64,000 nt of DNA from Planococcus maritimus (GTDB lineage Bacteria; Bacillota; Bacilli; Bacillales_A; Planococcaceae). The stretch's first letter is position 1. The number at the start of each line of letters is the position of its first letter. The notes under the pieces were generated by a model that saw nothing but the letters and a program-made list of their open reading frames with translations, made no database searches and was not told the DNA's origin. Below are positions 1,638-13,261 of the stretch, piece by piece. The translations under genes were made by a program, and so were the position numbers. Location: contig NZ_CP016538.2 of NCBI RefSeq assembly GCF_001687625.2, forward strand, positions 2,200,501 through 2,264,500. Reading direction: 5' to 3'.

Positions 1638-2312
1638 TTAGCGGACTTCCACCCATCCGTTTTTAATAGCTGTTACCACTGCCTGCGTGCGGTCGTTAAC
1701 CTGCATTTTTTGCAAAATGCTCGACACGTGATTTTTAACGGTCTTTTCAGAGATGAACAAAGTTTCACCAATGACACGGTTGCTTTGCCCATCCGTCAGC
1801 AATTGCAAAACTTCGCTTTCGCGTTTTGTCAATAAATGGTAAGGTCGACGGATTTCTGTTTGGTGGAATGAACCTTTGTTTTCCCGTTCGCTCAAACGGC
1901 GGAATTCCATTACCAAATTTCGCGTTACTTTTGGATGCAGGTACGATCCGCCTTTAGCCACGACTTTGATCGCCTGGATAATGGCATCTGCGTCCATTTC
2001 TTTTAGCATATAGCCAAGTGCCCCAGTTTTAAGCGCATGCGTCACATATGATTCGTCATCGTGAATGGACAGCATAATGACTTTAGCGTCCGGGAATCTT
2101 TCGATCAGCTCACCCGTAGCTTCGACACCATTTTTTTGCGGCATGTTGATATCCATCAACACAACATCCGGCTGATGTTCTTCGTATAGCTTGACGACTT
2201 CCTCGCCGTCGCCGCCTTCTGCGACCACTTCAAAGGTTTCTTCGAAGTCCAGGATACGCTTAACACCTTCCCGGAACAATTGGTGATCATCAATAATAAT
2301 AATTTTTGTCAT
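1638..2312 (-). CDS. degU: Two-component response regulator DegU
   Basis: A 224-residue NarL/FixJ-type response regulator. The receiver domain (1-120) carries the acidic pocket at D8-D9, the phospho-acceptor D54 in VLMDINMP and K105-region residues. The LuxR-type HTH is at about 155-220 ([36 protein letters not shown]). In Bacillus, DegU phosphorylated by DegS controls exoenzymes, competence, motility and biofilm. GAGGAGG sits 8 bases before the ATG. It follows degS with a 28-base gap, so the two are co-transcribed. Symbol supported by the conserved degV/degS/yigZ/tagO neighbourhood. Confidence 0.95.
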
Positions 2313-2340
2313 TATGTCGTCCTCCTCAAAATACCATATC

Positions 2341-3486
2341 TTACATACCCGTCTTCAGCGGGATATGAAACATTAACACCGTTCCTTCGCCCAGCGTGGA
2401 GTTAATGAAAAACTCGCCGCCGATCAATTCAATTCTCTCTCTCATGCCGGCCAAGCCGAATGACTGGTCTTTAACAATCTCTTGATCAAACCCGGAGCCA
2501 TTGTCCTTAATGATAATCGACACTTGTTCAGAGAGCCACTCCATTTTAACTTCGATTTCCGTCGATTTTCCATGGCGAATCGCATTCGACACCGATTCTT
2601 GCACGAGTCGGAAAATGGACGTTTCAAAGTTATTCGGGAGCCGGAGTTCGTTTCCATTGGAATGAAAAAACAACCGGACTCCGTGGTTATATTCTTCAAT
2701 CGTTTCGAGATATTTTTTTAAAGTCGGAACTAGCCCAAGATCATCTAATGCCATTGGACGCAAATCATAGATGATTCGCCTGACTTCTGTGAGTGCTTGC
2801 CTCACCATCTCTTTCAACGAAGAAATTTCCTTAAAGGCCTTATCCGCACCTTTTTCACGGTATGTTTTCTCGATTAAGTCCGAACGCAGCAAGACGTTTG
2901 CCATCATCTGGGCCGGGCCATCATGTATCTCACGTGACAGCCGCTTCCGCTCTTCTTCTTGCGCTTCGATGATTCGCAAGCTATAGTCCTGTTTGCTTTT
3001 CGATTTATCGACCGCTTCACCAAAATCTTCAATATCCGACGCCAAATAATTGGTGGCCACGTTGATCTGGTTGACCAATCGTTCTGCACGTTCAATTGTT
3101 TGAAGAAGTTTTTGAAGATTGCGCTGGAGGCGGTCCCGTTTTTGCCGAAACTTTTTTTCCTCTGCGCGGTTCAAGGATAATTGCACTTGCATTTCGTTGG
3201 CCAACTCAAAAGCTTCGCGAACTTGGTTTTCAGTGAATGATTCGAATGAACCCGATAGTTCAGCGAGTCGCCGGCGAGCTGAACGAGTCCGCTCTTCAAG
3301 GGCATCGCCTTCCGCTATGATGCGGCTGATGTTCGACCTAACGTTCTCCAACTCGTCCTTCATCTCTTCATAGCTGCGACGACTTTCTTCGCTAATGGCG
3401 AAAATTCCCTGTTTCGACTGGTCCATCTTTGCGACCAGTTCGTCAAAGATGGAATCTAATGAAGTTCCACCGTTTTTCTTTGCCAT
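2341..3486 (-). CDS. degS: Cytoplasmic sensor histidine kinase DegS
   Basis: A 381-residue soluble kinase with no membrane segment, as expected for DegS. Residues 1-160 form a long coiled-coil sensor region rich in Glu, Arg and Lys. The HisKA_3 dimerisation motif [12 protein letters not shown] has the phospho-accepting histidine at 188. The HATPase domain follows, with an N-box ([10 protein letters not shown]) and G-boxes ([21 protein letters not shown]). Its partner is DegU, encoded next on the same strand. The ribosome binding site AAGGCGG is 7 bases before the ATG. Upstream is the divergently transcribed yigZ, as in B. subtilis. Confidence 0.95.
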
Positions 3487-9070: not shown

Positions 9071-9991
9071 TCAGAACAAACGAGGCGTTGGTGGCGTTCC
9101 CGTCTTCTTCTCTACATCTTTGTGGAAATCATCTACATCTCTAGGGTTTTTCGCTGATTCAAAATCGTCGCGACGATCTCCATCATTTGAATGCTCTTCT
9201 TCTGAATCATGGCCGAACGGCGCTGGCCCAAGGTTCGGATCTGATCCTGGAGAAGATTCAACTTCTCTATTCAATTCCTTTTCGCCTTCTTGGTCACCGA
9301 GTTTAGGTTCGTGTTCCATGCGTTTTTCAGATGGTTTTTCCGCTTCCGATGGCTTTTCACGGTCGCTAGTCGGATGGATTTCGTCACCTTTCAAACGGGA
9401 ATCCTGGGATTTGCTATGCACTTGAGATCTATTCGTCTGCTCACGAGTGGCATCGGTAGTATAAATGCCGTCAACACCCGTATCATGTCGGCCCTCGTGT
9501 TTCTGGATATCTTTATCGATCAGTTTTTCATCGTCGTGCATTCTTCCATCCCGTTCAACATCTCTGCCAAACGGCGCGAATGCCGTATTGCGTTCTCCCG
9601 AATCCAGATCCATAGGTTGGTTGTCATCAGAATGCGAAGAAAAGTGCTCAGCCTCTGAATCACTAGGCTCCCCATCGGTATAGAGAAGGACCGCGCCTCG
9701 TTCAATTTCACGCTCGTACTGATCTGCCTTGTCGCGGGTTATACCGAATTCATCCAACTTAGCTCGAGCTTGATCCTCACCAGTGAAAAGAGTTTTGATG
9801 CGTTTGCCAAAAGAATTAGCCTGGCTTGAATCTACTCCATACCGATCGTGTGCTTCGTTCACCAAGTTTTTATCGTTCGCCAGCACATGGATATCTTCGT
9901 TACGATATCCTCTTGAAATAAAGCTTTCCAAAGCCTGTTCCATTTCTTCTTGCGTGTAGACGATTTCGTATTGACGGTTTGTCTGTGCCAT
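9071..9991 (-). CDS. YflT-domain general stress protein with long disordered tail
   Basis: 306 residues. Residues 6-108 form a YflT/GSP17M domain (YEIVYTQEEMEQALESFISRGYRNEDIHVLAND, then SFGKRIKTLFTGEDQARAKLDEFGITRDKADQYEREIERGAVLLYTDG). The remaining 200 residues are an acidic, Asp/Glu/His/Arg-rich low-complexity tail with no predicted fold. B. subtilis yflT and gsp17M are induced by SigB; their biochemical role is unknown. GGAGG is 8 bases before the ATG. A SigB-like promoter lies 39 bases upstream. The next gene upstream is a paralogue. Confidence 0.88.
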   Translation of the reverse strand: MAQTNRQYEIVYTQEEMEQALESFISRGYRNEDIHVLANDKNLVNEAHDRYGVDSSQANSFGKRIKTLFTGEDQARAKLDEFGITRDKADQYEREIERGAVLLYTDGEPSDSEAEHFSSHSDDNQPMDLDSGERNTAFAPFGRDVERDGRMHDDEKLIDKDIQKHEGRHDTGVDGIYTTDATREQTNRSQVHSKSQDSRLKGDEIHPTSDREKPSEAEKPSEKRMEHEPKLGDQEGEKELNREVESSPGSDPNLGPAPFGHDSEEEHSNDGDRRDDFESAKNPRDVDDFHKDVEKKTGTPPTPRLF

Positions 9992-10029
9992 TCATAAAAC
10001 CTCCTGATTTCACTTGTCTTGTTAGTTGT

Positions 10030-10056
10030 TTACCCGCACGTTATCATTGCTAAAAC
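10030..10056 (-). promoter_or_regulatory. SigB-like promoter of the first YflT-domain gene
   Basis: On the minus strand GTTTTA (10051-10056), a 15-base spacer and GGGTAA (10030-10035), giving a start point about 30 bases before the ATG. It has the same architecture and spacing as the promoter of the paralogue at 10152. Confidence 0.7.
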
Positions 10057-10115
10057 ATTTCGTTCCTTCTATTTCATCATTTTTACATCGATAAAACTCG
10101 TATCCTCAGGCACCA

Positions 10116-10145
10116 TAAAACCCCCGGCCATTGATGGCTGGGGGC
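10116..10145 (-). terminator. Terminator after the second YflT-domain gene
   Basis: On the minus strand CCCCCAGCCA pairs with TGGCCGGGGG across TCAA, followed by TTTTA. Confidence 0.8.
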
Positions 10146-10151
10146 AAGGAT

Positions 10152-10745
10152 TCATCTGTATTTTCGATCAGTCTTACTTTGTGCTTCTGTTTTGCTTGTG
10201 CCGCCCCTAGCTTTTTCCACTTCGGGTTTTTCCTGAGTAGTAAAGGATACATGGCGCTCATCTTTCACTAATGTTGGATCTTGAAGGAATGTTTCACCTC
10301 GAGCGAAACGGTCTTCCTGTTCATCATAATTATTGTCAACGGACTGGATGTACTGACGGCGCTCTGCATCGGTTGGTTCTCCCTCAGGCGCACCTTCTGA
10401 TTCTTTTACTTGTTCCATGATGCCCTTTCGTTCGCCTTCAACATATAATAAGGTTCCGCCTTTAGCTACATCTTCTGTGTAGCGCTGAGACTCCGCTTCT
10501 GATAAACCAAGTGAATCAATCGATTCCTTGACCGCACTCTTCCCTGTTACAAAACTCTTCATTTTATCTCCGAATGCCCCGGCTTTTTCCACTTCCACTT
10601 GATCGCTGTTTAAGTGATCGGTATTTTCAGCCACTGCATGGATTTCCTCTGTGGCATAGCCTTGTTCATTTAACTGGCTCAATTTACGGTTGAAATCTTC
10701 TTGAGAATAAACGACCCCAAGTACTTGTTTGTTTGATGTGCTCAT
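10152..10745 (-). CDS. YflT-domain general stress protein (paralogue)
   Basis: 197 residues. The N-terminal YflT domain (VLGVVYSQEDFNRKLSQLNEQGYATEEIHAVAEN ... GAFGDKMKSFVTGKSAVKESIDSLGLSEAESQRYTEDVAKGGTLLYVEG) is clearly related to the neighbour at 9071. Both share Y-[ST]-QE-[ED], G-Y-x-x-E-[ED]-I-H and the GLSxxExxxY block. A hydrophilic tail of about 85 residues follows. The start is placed at ATG 10745, seven bases after GGGGG; GTG one codon upstream is possible. It has its own SigB-like promoter and its own terminator, so the two paralogues are separate units. Confidence 0.86.
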   Translation of the reverse strand: MSTSNKQVLGVVYSQEDFNRKLSQLNEQGYATEEIHAVAENTDHLNSDQVEVEKAGAFGDKMKSFVTGKSAVKESIDSLGLSEAESQRYTEDVAKGGTLLYVEGERKGIMEQVKESEGAPEGEPTDAERRQYIQSVDNNYDEQEDRFARGETFLQDPTLVKDERHVSFTTQEKPEVEKARGGTSKTEAQSKTDRKYR

Positions 10746-11151
10746 CACAATACCCCCATTTAATTGATTTAGCTGCTGTATTATTATTCCTTACCCCTCA
10801 TTACACTTTATCTAAACTTTCCGGAAATTATTATACTAGAACATTAGAACTACTAGTAAGTCCAATTACTGTAATGATTTAGGTGTTCTTTTGGATAATA
10901 GGCACTTTTTACCTTTTTTCTCAAAACACAAGTTACAGATATAAAAAAGCAGTTTATTTTGAAAATTGATGCTATCATAGATTTAATATGTGCATTTAAA
11001 GTAAAATATGAATGTAGATGTGGAGGCGGTAAGTATCGTACTAAATAATCTCTCTGATATACGCTTGTCAGGGCCGCCTGGCCAAGCGGAGAAAAACTCT
11101 CCTACATGGATGATGGAAGTACTGCCCATTCAAATGGAAAGGAGAGCGGAC
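10746..11151. other. Intergenic region upstream of the HTH-TPR regulator
   Basis: About 400 bases between divergent genes. The left end holds the SigB-like promoter of the YflT-domain gene. The rest is AT-rich. No SigA promoter of good quality could be assigned to the regulator: TATCAT at 10973 lacks a -35 box at proper distance. The regulator frame stays open back to 11008, but that extension has no ribosome binding site and is treated as non-coding leader. Confidence 0.4.
10791..10817 (-). promoter_or_regulatory. SigB-like promoter of the second YflT-domain gene
   Basis: On the minus strand GTTTAG (10812-10817), a 15-base spacer and GGGTAA (10791-10796), 45 bases before the ATG. It matches the SigB consensus well and mirrors the neighbour's promoter. 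Confidence 0.75.
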
Positions 11152-12441
11152 ATGGACACTGGAATGAGACTGAAATACCACCGATTAAAAAAACGTTTCA
11201 GCATGGAAGAAACGGCATCTGGCATTATTTCTTCCAAAGAGTTGAAAAAAATTGAATCCGGGTTGAAAGAGCCGGCTTTGAAAGAACTGGAAGCATTATG
11301 CAAAAAACTTGAGATTCCGTTAGCTGCTAAAGATAACCCAATTGGGAAAGTGCTAGTGAAAAACTTCAAGAATTCATTGCTTCACCCCCAAAATAAAGGG
11401 AAGATTATGGAGCATTATGCAGACATCTGCAACCACCCTCTTTTACGCGCAGACGAAGATGTCGAACTCGAATTCGATATTCAACAAATCCGCTATTTCA
11501 TTATTACCGGCGATTTGGAAAGCGCAGAAAATAAAATCAAAGAGATGGATCGCTTCAAGGAGTTCATGGATCAAGAACAGTATTACCTGTATCATAAATA
11601 CAACGGCAATTATAATTACATTTTAAATGATTTCGAGACTGCATTAAAAACCTATTTGATTGCTGAGAAGATTATTCCAAAGTCTATATCTGCCGCTGAA
11701 GTGGGAGACTTATATTATTCTATCGGCATATCTAGCAATCATTGTGAAGAACATGAATTGGCTTTTAAATATTCAGAATTGGCATTAAAAATTTATCAAC
11801 AAGAGTTTGTACCCAAACGAATTGTGGAGTGCCACTTGAATATAGCGATTACTCATGAATACTTCGGAAATTACAAATTATCTCTTGAACATCATAAGAA
11901 TGCTTTAACCATCGGCAGTAAATTGGATATTGATATTTTAAAATTCACTACTGAATATAATGTAGGCTATTCTAATTTTATTTATCAACAATACGAAGAA
12001 GCTATTCCACATTTAAATAACGCCTTAAAATATATTCCCAACGAGTATTTAGCTGACTGCATTTCTACCTATTGTTTGTTGATTAGAAGTTACTTAGAAA
12101 TTGATGATAGAGTTAAAGCTGAAAAAGCTGTCAAAGAAGGTACAGAAAAAGTTAAAGCTAAAGATTTGGGCTTAGATTCCCCAGCAAATACTTCTTTCAG
12201 AAATGTGTACATGGAATTTGTCGCACTAACTTATTTACTTGAAGGTGATGAAAAAGGGTTCGAAGACATTTTATTGAATGAGTTAGTAAAGACTTTCGAA
12301 GAATCAAATAGTTTCCATGATTTAGGTTACTACTTTGGATATTTGGGTAATTTGTATTTTAGACAAGAGCGCTACAAAGAATCAGCTATAATGTTAGAAA
12401 AATCAAAGGATGCTTACAAAGCAGTCCTCAATATCAGTTAG
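11152..12441 (+). CDS. RRNPP-type HTH-TPR peptide-responsive regulator (NprR-like)
   Basis: About 429 residues from the ATG at 11152, chosen because AAAGGAG (11138-11144) is 7 bases upstream; the frame runs on to 11008 without a ribosome binding site. Residues 4-57 read as an XRE-type helix-turn-helix (MRLKYHRLKKRFSMEETA ... SSKELKKIESGLKEPALKELEALCKKLEI). Residues about 90-425 are tetratricopeptide-like helical pairs (DFETALKTYLIAEKI, HELAFKYSELALKIYQQ, NYKLSLEHHKNALTIG, QYEEAIPHLNNALKYI, RYKESAIMLEKSKDAY). Size and order fit NprR better than PlcR (about 285) or Rap (no HTH). Known members bind re-imported peptides that switch DNA binding. The peptide precursor gene follows 13 bases after the stop. 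Target genes are not evident nearby. Confidence 0.85.
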   Translation: MDTGMRLKYHRLKKRFSMEETASGIISSKELKKIESGLKEPALKELEALCKKLEIPLAAKDNPIGKVLVKNFKNSLLHPQNKGKIMEHYADICNHPLLRADEDVELEFDIQQIRYFIITGDLESAENKIKEMDRFKEFMDQEQYYLYHKYNGNYNYILNDFETALKTYLIAEKIIPKSISAAEVGDLYYSIGISSNHCEEHELAFKYSELALKIYQQEFVPKRIVECHLNIAITHEYFGNYKLSLEHHKNALTIGSKLDIDILKFTTEYNVGYSNFIYQQYEEAIPHLNNALKYIPNEYLADCISTYCLLIRSYLEIDDRVKAEKAVKEGTEKVKAKDLGLDSPANTSFRNVYMEFVALTYLLEGDEKGFEDILLNELVKTFEESNSFHDLGYYFGYLGNLYFRQERYKESAIMLEKSKDAYKAVLNIS

Positions 12442-12454
12442 GAGTGAGAAAATA

Positions 12455-13171
12455 ATGAAGAAAAGCATACTTTTGTTATTAGCATCCACTTTTGTAATAA
12501 GCACTTTGCCAGGTGTTACTTCACTAAACGATACAAATGATTTGGCTGTTAAATCTCGCATCCCTGAACCTTGGGCAGTCGAAGATCAACTTGCTGTCAA
12601 GTCCCGTATCCCTGAACCTTGGGCTGTTGAAGACCAACTTGCTGTTAAATCTCGTATCCCTGAACCTTGGGCTGTTGAAGATCAACTTGCTGTTAAATCT
12701 CGCATCCCTGAACCTTGGGCTGTTGAAGATCAACTTGCTGTTAAATCTCGCATCCCTGAACCTTGGGCTGTTGAAGACCAACTTGCTGTTAAATCTCGCA
12801 TCCCTGAACCTTGGGCTGTTGAAGACCAACTTGCTGTTAAATCTCGTATCCCTGAACCTTGGGCTGTTGAAGATCAACTTGCTGTTAAATCTCGCATCCC
12901 TGAACCTTGGGCTGTTGAAGATCAACTTGCTGTTAAATCTCGCATCCCTGAACCTTGGGCTGTTGAAGACCAACTTGCTGTTAAATCTCGCATCCCTGAA
13001 CCTTGGGCTGTTGAAGACCAACTTGCTGTTAAATCTCGCATCCCTGAACCTTGGGCTGTTGAAGACCAACTTGCTGTTAAATCTCGCATCCCTGAACCTT
13101 GGGCTGTTGAAGACCAACTTGCTGTTAAATCTCGTATCCCTGAACCTTGGTCAGTTAACGCGAAAGCATAA
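12455..13171 (+). CDS. Secreted multi-copy signalling peptide precursor (13 tandem RIPEPW units)
   Basis: 238 residues from the ATG at 12455, with AGGAG overlapping the stop of the regulator. Residues 1-23 are a Sec-type signal peptide (MKK, then a hydrophobic core ILLLLASTFVIS, then TLPGVTS). After LNDTND come twelve exact copies of LAVKSRIPEPWAVEDQ and a thirteenth, divergent end unit LAVKSRIPEPWSVNAKA. All base differences among the twelve copies are silent. Position directly after an HTH-TPR regulator is the arrangement of NprR-NprX and PlcR-PapR, so the repeats are probably proteolysed outside into many copies of one short pheromone containing RIPEPW. Exact cleavage sites are unknown. 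A bacteriocin-like or surface-repeat role is the main alternative. Confidence 0.82.
   Translation: MKKSILLLLASTFVISTLPGVTSLNDTNDLAVKSRIPEPWAVEDQLAVKSRIPEPWAVEDQLAVKSRIPEPWAVEDQLAVKSRIPEPWAVEDQLAVKSRIPEPWAVEDQLAVKSRIPEPWAVEDQLAVKSRIPEPWAVEDQLAVKSRIPEPWAVEDQLAVKSRIPEPWAVEDQLAVKSRIPEPWAVEDQLAVKSRIPEPWAVEDQLAVKSRIPEPWAVEDQLAVKSRIPEPWSVNAKA
12542..13168 (+). repeat. 48-bp in-frame tandem repeat array
   Basis: Twelve full 48-base units (12542-13117) and one divergent 51-base end unit (13118-13168). Units differ only at third positions or silent sites: mostly the Arg codon (CGC/CGT) and the Asp codon (GAT/GAC), with more differences in the first two. By these two codons units 3-6 and units 7-10 show the same series (CGT-GAT, CGC-GAT, CGC-GAC, CGC-GAC), pointing to duplication of a four-unit, 192-base block. 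The array is contiguous and without spacers, so it is not CRISPR. Confidence 0.97.
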
Positions 13172-13186
13172 TTTCGCAATCAGAAT

Positions 13187-13221
13187 TAACCCGCCCTCCA
13201 AAATGGAGAGCGGGTTTTTTG
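13187..13221. terminator. Terminator after the peptide precursor gene
   Basis: AACCCGC pairs with GCGGGTT and CTCCA with TGGAG around an AAA loop, followed by T6. It closes the regulator-peptide operon; on the other strand it may also serve the convergent amidotransferase gene. Confidence 0.85.
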
Positions 13222-13261
13222 TGATTTCATAAGAAACGACGGACATACTATTGCTGCCGTC

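Follow-up and report, generated by a model that had tools for sequence, protein, structure and literature searches.

The window, i.e., the whole 64,000-nucleotide stretch analyzed here, is part of a 3.28-Mb single-contig Planococcus genome and contains a two-gene operon on its plus strand. The first gene (11152..12441; ATG at 11152, stop codon at 12439–12441) encodes a 429-residue NprR-like regulator, and the second (12455..13171; ATG at 12455, stop codon at 13169–13171) a 238-residue protein, the putative pheromone precursor. An earlier sequence-only reading had described a regulator followed after 13 bases by a secreted repeat protein, and its coordinates proved exact, as did the noted overlap between the regulator stop codon TAG and the precursor ribosome-binding site AGGAG (12440..12444), which together form TTAGGAG. 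Behind the precursor, an inverted repeat with a T run (13188..13222 of the plus strand, scored on the minus strand) represents a putative terminator common to this gene and the convergent one. Two adjoining genes with YflT domains (heat/general stress; 9071–10748), encoded on the opposite strand, immediately precede the operon, and a DegS–DegU two-component pair is encoded at 1641–3486, about 8 kb away. In Bacillus, DegS–DegU controls secreted proteases.

The precursor begins with a basic-hydrophobic signal sequence, MKKSILLLLASTFVISTLPGVTS (12455..12523; cleavage site assigned by inspection), whose charge–hydrophobic–polar layout is the same in all precursor orthologues. A short spacer separates it from twelve full 48-bp units encoding LAVKSRIPEPWAVEDQ (12542..13117) and a thirteenth copy, LAVKSRIPEPW, with the C-terminal tail SVNAKA (13118..13168). 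The 13 copies of a 16-residue unit counted from the sequence alone hold as 12 identical units and a 13th core with a changed tail. Tandem Repeats Finder reports a 48-bp unit in 12.6 copies at 12545–13150 (96% match, score 1114), the sole other row in the 64 kb having a score of 59. The 12 full units differ from one another by silent changes only, and the core pattern has no match in the whole genome beyond the 13 RIPEPW cores. Matches of the repeat protein to XopL_C, Cornifin, and other Pfam, PHROG, and NCBIfam entries cover few residues or repeat-rich stretches and were rejected as low-complexity artifacts.

In the regulator, an N-terminal HTH domain (residues 3–52) precedes nine TPR helix pairs (residues 63–426). 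Pfam yielded several TPR families (TPR_12, E 1.4e-15), with HTH_3 slightly below the cut-off. When the PDB was searched with a profile built from 47 regulator homologues, the best natural relative was NprR (E 2e-46, residues 65–415), followed by Rap proteins (about 1e-29) and by PlcR, which matches through the HTH (1.5e-12). One engineered TPR chain outscores NprR in this search and was set aside, as its match is due to repeats. The AlphaFold model (pLDDT 92.5, pTM 0.87) consists of the HTH and 18 helices, i.e., nine TPR pairs as in NprR, and the 36 best fold matches found by Foldseek in the PDB are all NprR or Rap, which are equally near to the regulator judged by fold alone. N270 aligns with position 216 of the NprR chain and with Asn227 of RapF, the residue that holds the peptide main chain and whose mutation abolishes peptide binding. 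All 47 homologues retain this Asn, including those with identity as low as about 18%.

With 429 residues and nine helix pairs, the protein lies within the size range of RRNPP(A) receptors (about 250–500 residues with several TPRs), N270 matches their conserved peptide-holding Asn, and the gene of a Sec-exported propeptide, its signal peptide recognized by inspection, is adjacent across the 13-nt gap, a pairing retained genus-wide. The N-terminal HTH, the nine TPRs, and the closest relationship to NprR in sequence and fold characterize the NprR subfamily. Assignment to the NprR type of RRNPP regulators is thus supported by every available test (profile, fold, nine TPRs, Asn, Sec-signal neighbor, co-conservation), which bears out the sequence-only view of an RRNPP-type, NprR-sized regulator with a TPR groove. 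NprR has a dual role, being a Spo0F phosphatase when free of peptide and a tetrameric activator when peptide is bound; a Spo0A gene is also encoded in this genome.

Orthologues of the regulator are present in all 46 Planococcus genomes (56–91% identity among the others), and in every genome with an intact downstream region, the gene that follows encodes a secreted tandem-repeat precursor. A repeat gene lacking the regulator, which would speak against the pairing, was seen in none of the genomes examined, and no core array was found away from the locus. Precursors in the genus contain from 2 to 14 copies (median 7), where numbers from draft genomes are lower bounds because contig ends or runs of N interrupt several arrays; in G090, further cores lie on a second contig. 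Single-contig genomes have 13, 10, 8, 7, 6, 5, and 4 copies. Copy number, linkers, and unit length (12–18 residues) vary while the core is almost unchanged within arrays and drifts between lineages (RIPEPW, RVPEPW, RVTEPW, RLPDPW, RIPDPW, KIPQPW, KVPQPW, KHPQPW, KHPHPW). Its P-x-P-W end is near-fixed, with T in place of the first P in one of the 41 precursors.

Pairs with a repeat precursor likewise occur in genera g5 (core IIPEPW) and g12 (core MYPPPW). Five Planococcus genomes (L061–L065) contain a second, paralogous multi-copy pair with cores IHPNPW or LWPQPW and a regulator about 29% identical, which may provide these cells with a separate signal channel. Beyond these groups, most of the fetched relatives carry single-copy precursors and few have multiple copies. 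Among the latter, an NprR-like system from a different family (L127 in G613) has nine copies of DNSPGIKSL, three genomes of one genus (L111, L112, L114) have three copies of SEPDHPKIV each, and L077 (G132) has five DKPDITSI or DKPEITSI units. In L059 (G016:C3), from genus g5, the regulator is divided between two open frames, perhaps through decay of the system or a frameshift introduced by sequencing.

Selection was measured between neighboring copies, with all arrays pooled. Of the differences in the six core codons, 169 are silent and 3 are replacements (pN/pS 0.005), against 190 and 79 in the linkers (pN/pS 0.138), as expected of a multi-copy precursor with the core under purifying selection and the linkers free. 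In arrays with 16-residue units, the cores are 100% identical within an array, whereas the linkers are 96% identical within and 50% between species. Hence, the copies are homogenized inside each genome and then diverge together, and the uniformity within arrays is partly a product of recombination between copies rather than of selection. To judge from these sequences, a conserved core combined with variable linkers and unit lengths fits a precursor that is cleaved within its linkers and does not resemble a structural repeat.

On the receptor side, just two of 185 conserved columns, 262 and 266, are changed in the xPDPW as well as the KxPQPW receptors; they precede N270 by one and two helix turns. 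Control clade pairs have 0–4 columns changing likewise, both columns also differ between the two RIPEPW receptors L050 and L051, and the xPDPW and KxPQPW clades are related; against these controls, the signal of receptor–peptide covariation is weak and only suggestive.

We consider it highly probable that the two genes form a chromosomal quorum-sensing pair of the RRNPP (NprR-like) type, in which a multi-copy pheromone precursor is cut and its peptides are re-imported and bound via N270. The precursor would be exported by Sec and lose its signal peptide, and extracellular proteases would cut the variable linkers into up to 13 short peptides centered on RIPEPW(S/A), their exact ends being set by this putative cutting. 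As cell density rises, the peptides would accumulate, be taken back up by an oligopeptide permease, and occupy the TPR groove of the regulator, where N270 would hold their main chain; this would switch DNA binding and, presumably, transcription of the targets. Many copies per chain would mean a higher peptide yield per translation.

The surroundings of the core are conserved as well: a hydrophobic-Ala pair precedes it by a few residues, [SA]V follows it, and [EQ][VF] marks the unit join. In most orthologues, a tail of 6–8 residues stands behind the last core, which, unlike in most known precursors, is therefore not C-terminal; hence, both ends of every copy must be cut. The Planococcus genome encodes six subtilisin-type proteases and eight oligopeptide-binding proteins, none of them tied to the pheromone pair. 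Processing of internal copies has precedents. In two phage Rap-Phr systems, proteases including WprA mature such copies, which are active (Felipe-Ruiz 2024), and processing and activity are published for the identical internal copies of Phr105.

The sequence-only reading was right that known precursors usually hold one copy, but its multi-copy idea is less new than it implied, since Phr, NprX, AimP, and PapR cases are already in print. Duplicated autoinducers were described in phr and some nprX genes (Even-Tov 2016), repeats in 17 of 17 unusually large NprR propeptides, and, in four subfamilies, arrays of one peptide reaching six copies (Felipe-Ruiz 2022), with up to eight copies mentioned later (Felipe-Ruiz 2024). 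Known already, then, are multi-copy RRNPP precursors with up to 6–8 copies, for two of which processing has been shown. The new features are the extremely high copy number, the fixation of such arrays throughout a genus, and precursor sizes mostly missed by RRNPP_detector, which accepts propeptides of 10–100 residues only. This limit is a search setting and not a biological definition; the 238-residue precursor exceeds it, as do 34 of the 41 precursors in the genus, so that most of the family would be missed. The main texts searched on multi-copy RRNPP precursors do not mention Planococcus, which may nonetheless be among the sources of the 17 large NprR propeptides.

Several other readings of the locus have to be weighed. 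The repeat protein could be a true RRNPP precursor whose copy number has no role in dose, the array being a product of slippage with mostly neutral passenger copies and one or few of them matured. The wide differences among close relatives (13, 8, and 7 copies in the three nearest species) and the decay of first copies in some genomes (HNPEF in L014, SQPEN in L054) fit such slippage. However, the 169 silent vs. 3 replacement differences in the cores suggest selection on many copies, and every orthologue whose array is complete has more than one, which makes this reading rather unlikely. The length of 238 residues is unusual for a propeptide, and secreted tandem-repeat proteins often have structural roles, so the repeat protein might instead be a secreted effector, surface protein, or antimicrobial merely controlled by the neighboring regulator. 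This is improbable given the NprR fold and the invariant peptide-anchor Asn of the receptor, the downstream gene position matching that of NprX, Phr, and PapR, and the existence of short versions with 2–3 copies; moreover, a structural repeat would need a fixed unit length, whereas here it is variable, and the mature part has neither a wall anchor nor a cysteine.

An AimR-type phage lysogeny system, whose AimP precursors can also bear repeats (Felipe-Ruiz 2022), or another mobile-element module is extremely improbable. Phage records yielded no relative, nor did viral contigs scanned with the single protein, plasmid relatives are only distant (<28% identity), and the pair is present in every member of the genus at a constant chromosomal place among ordinary chromosomal genes, with NprR and Rap as the closest structures. 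The sequence-only reading had doubted an AimR system on the grounds of its neighbors, and this doubt is justified.

The quorum-sensing pair favored here most resembles NprR-NprX of the Bacillus cereus group, with which it shares the HTH and nine TPRs, the precursor gene immediately downstream, and the Sec signal. The mature NprX peptide is SKPDIVG, in contrast to the RIPEPW-type core of Planococcus, and nprX genes have few copies compared with 13 here and a multi-copy state in the whole genus. The multi-copy Rap-Phr systems (Phr105, Phr3T) similarly combine a TPR receptor with tandem copies, conserved cores, and unconserved linkers, but Rap has no HTH domain and Phr is reported at up to eight copies; two-copy processing and activity were demonstrated experimentally there, while in Planococcus processing is predicted. 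PlcR-PapR is likewise an HTH-TPR transcription factor with a downstream secreted peptide, although PlcR is shorter, has five TPRs, and matches the Planococcus regulator at the HTH only. AimR (arbitrium) differs in being phage-borne and controlling lysogeny through its target AimX, whereas the Planococcus pair is chromosomal and without phage relatives. In its working, the precursor is akin to the yeast alpha-factor and fungal KEX2-processed repeat proteins, where one secreted precursor contains many identical copies and spacers; these are eukaryotic, with unrelated sequence, receptor, and protease, and the Planococcus precursor lacks dibasic KEX2 sites.

We tentatively suggest, as a possibility and no more, that the genus has given up the single-copy state for such an alpha-factor-like polyprotein, that repeat number changed by recombination might act as a fast-evolving gain control of dose, and that concerted evolution might let pheromone and receptor co-diverge without a long mixed-signal stage. 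The natural series of 2 to 14 identical copies, with related receptors and several pherotypes in an environmental genus, allows two questions to be tested: whether internal copies increase the signal dose, and in what way receptor and pheromone evolve jointly.

Two strongly conserved blocks upstream of the regulator (10899–10989) are probably the operon promoter and operator. The first, TAGGCACTTTTTACCTTTTTTCTCAAAAC (10899..10927, plus strand), a candidate regulatory element, is near-identical in 14 close relatives, and its core TAGGyA..TTTTACCTTTT is kept across the genus. The second, GCAGTTTATTTTGAAAATTGATGCTATCATAGATTTAATAT (10949..10989, plus strand), is promoter-like or operator-like, includes TGAT-N3-ATCA, and is also conserved across the genus. 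A regulon search with both blocks returned the operon itself only, the first block being single-copy in the genome and the second having no other genomic copy at up to three mismatches. A promoter scan gave no site on the operon strand, and an Rfam search of the locus gave no match.

Between these blocks and the regulator, an in-frame leader of about 44 codons (11020..11151, plus strand) runs from an xTG codon (GTG GAG GCG) into the regulator and is open in all genomes of the genus. It contains the motifs xTG GAG GCG ... IVL ... NSPTWM ... ERR, and its changes are in excess at third codon positions. The start codon is GTG, ATG, or TTG in all Planococcus genomes except three, which have ACG; with the exception of one genome, its distance to the invariant IVL is 39 codons. 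In a model of the N-terminally extended regulator, the first 60 residues have pLDDT <50, so that the leader is predicted to be disordered, and the HTH loses confidence. For this reason, the model favors 11152 as the start of the folded protein, though not with full certainty given the conserved leader. Within the leader, CTCTCCT (11097–11103) is complementary to the regulator ribosome-binding site AGGAGAG (11140–11146), and the pairing is present in the predicted fold, with a z-score of only −1.86. The leader and this pairing hint at a possible translation-control hairpin or alternative start.

The same genome encodes a second NprR-like regulator (L101; G000:C1:902862-904975) with an ordinary single-copy precursor ending in GPQVLPPV, relatives of which end in ILPPL, VLPPF, or VLPPL. 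Some 165 bases ahead of this second regulator lies the end of a subtilisin-type protease domain.
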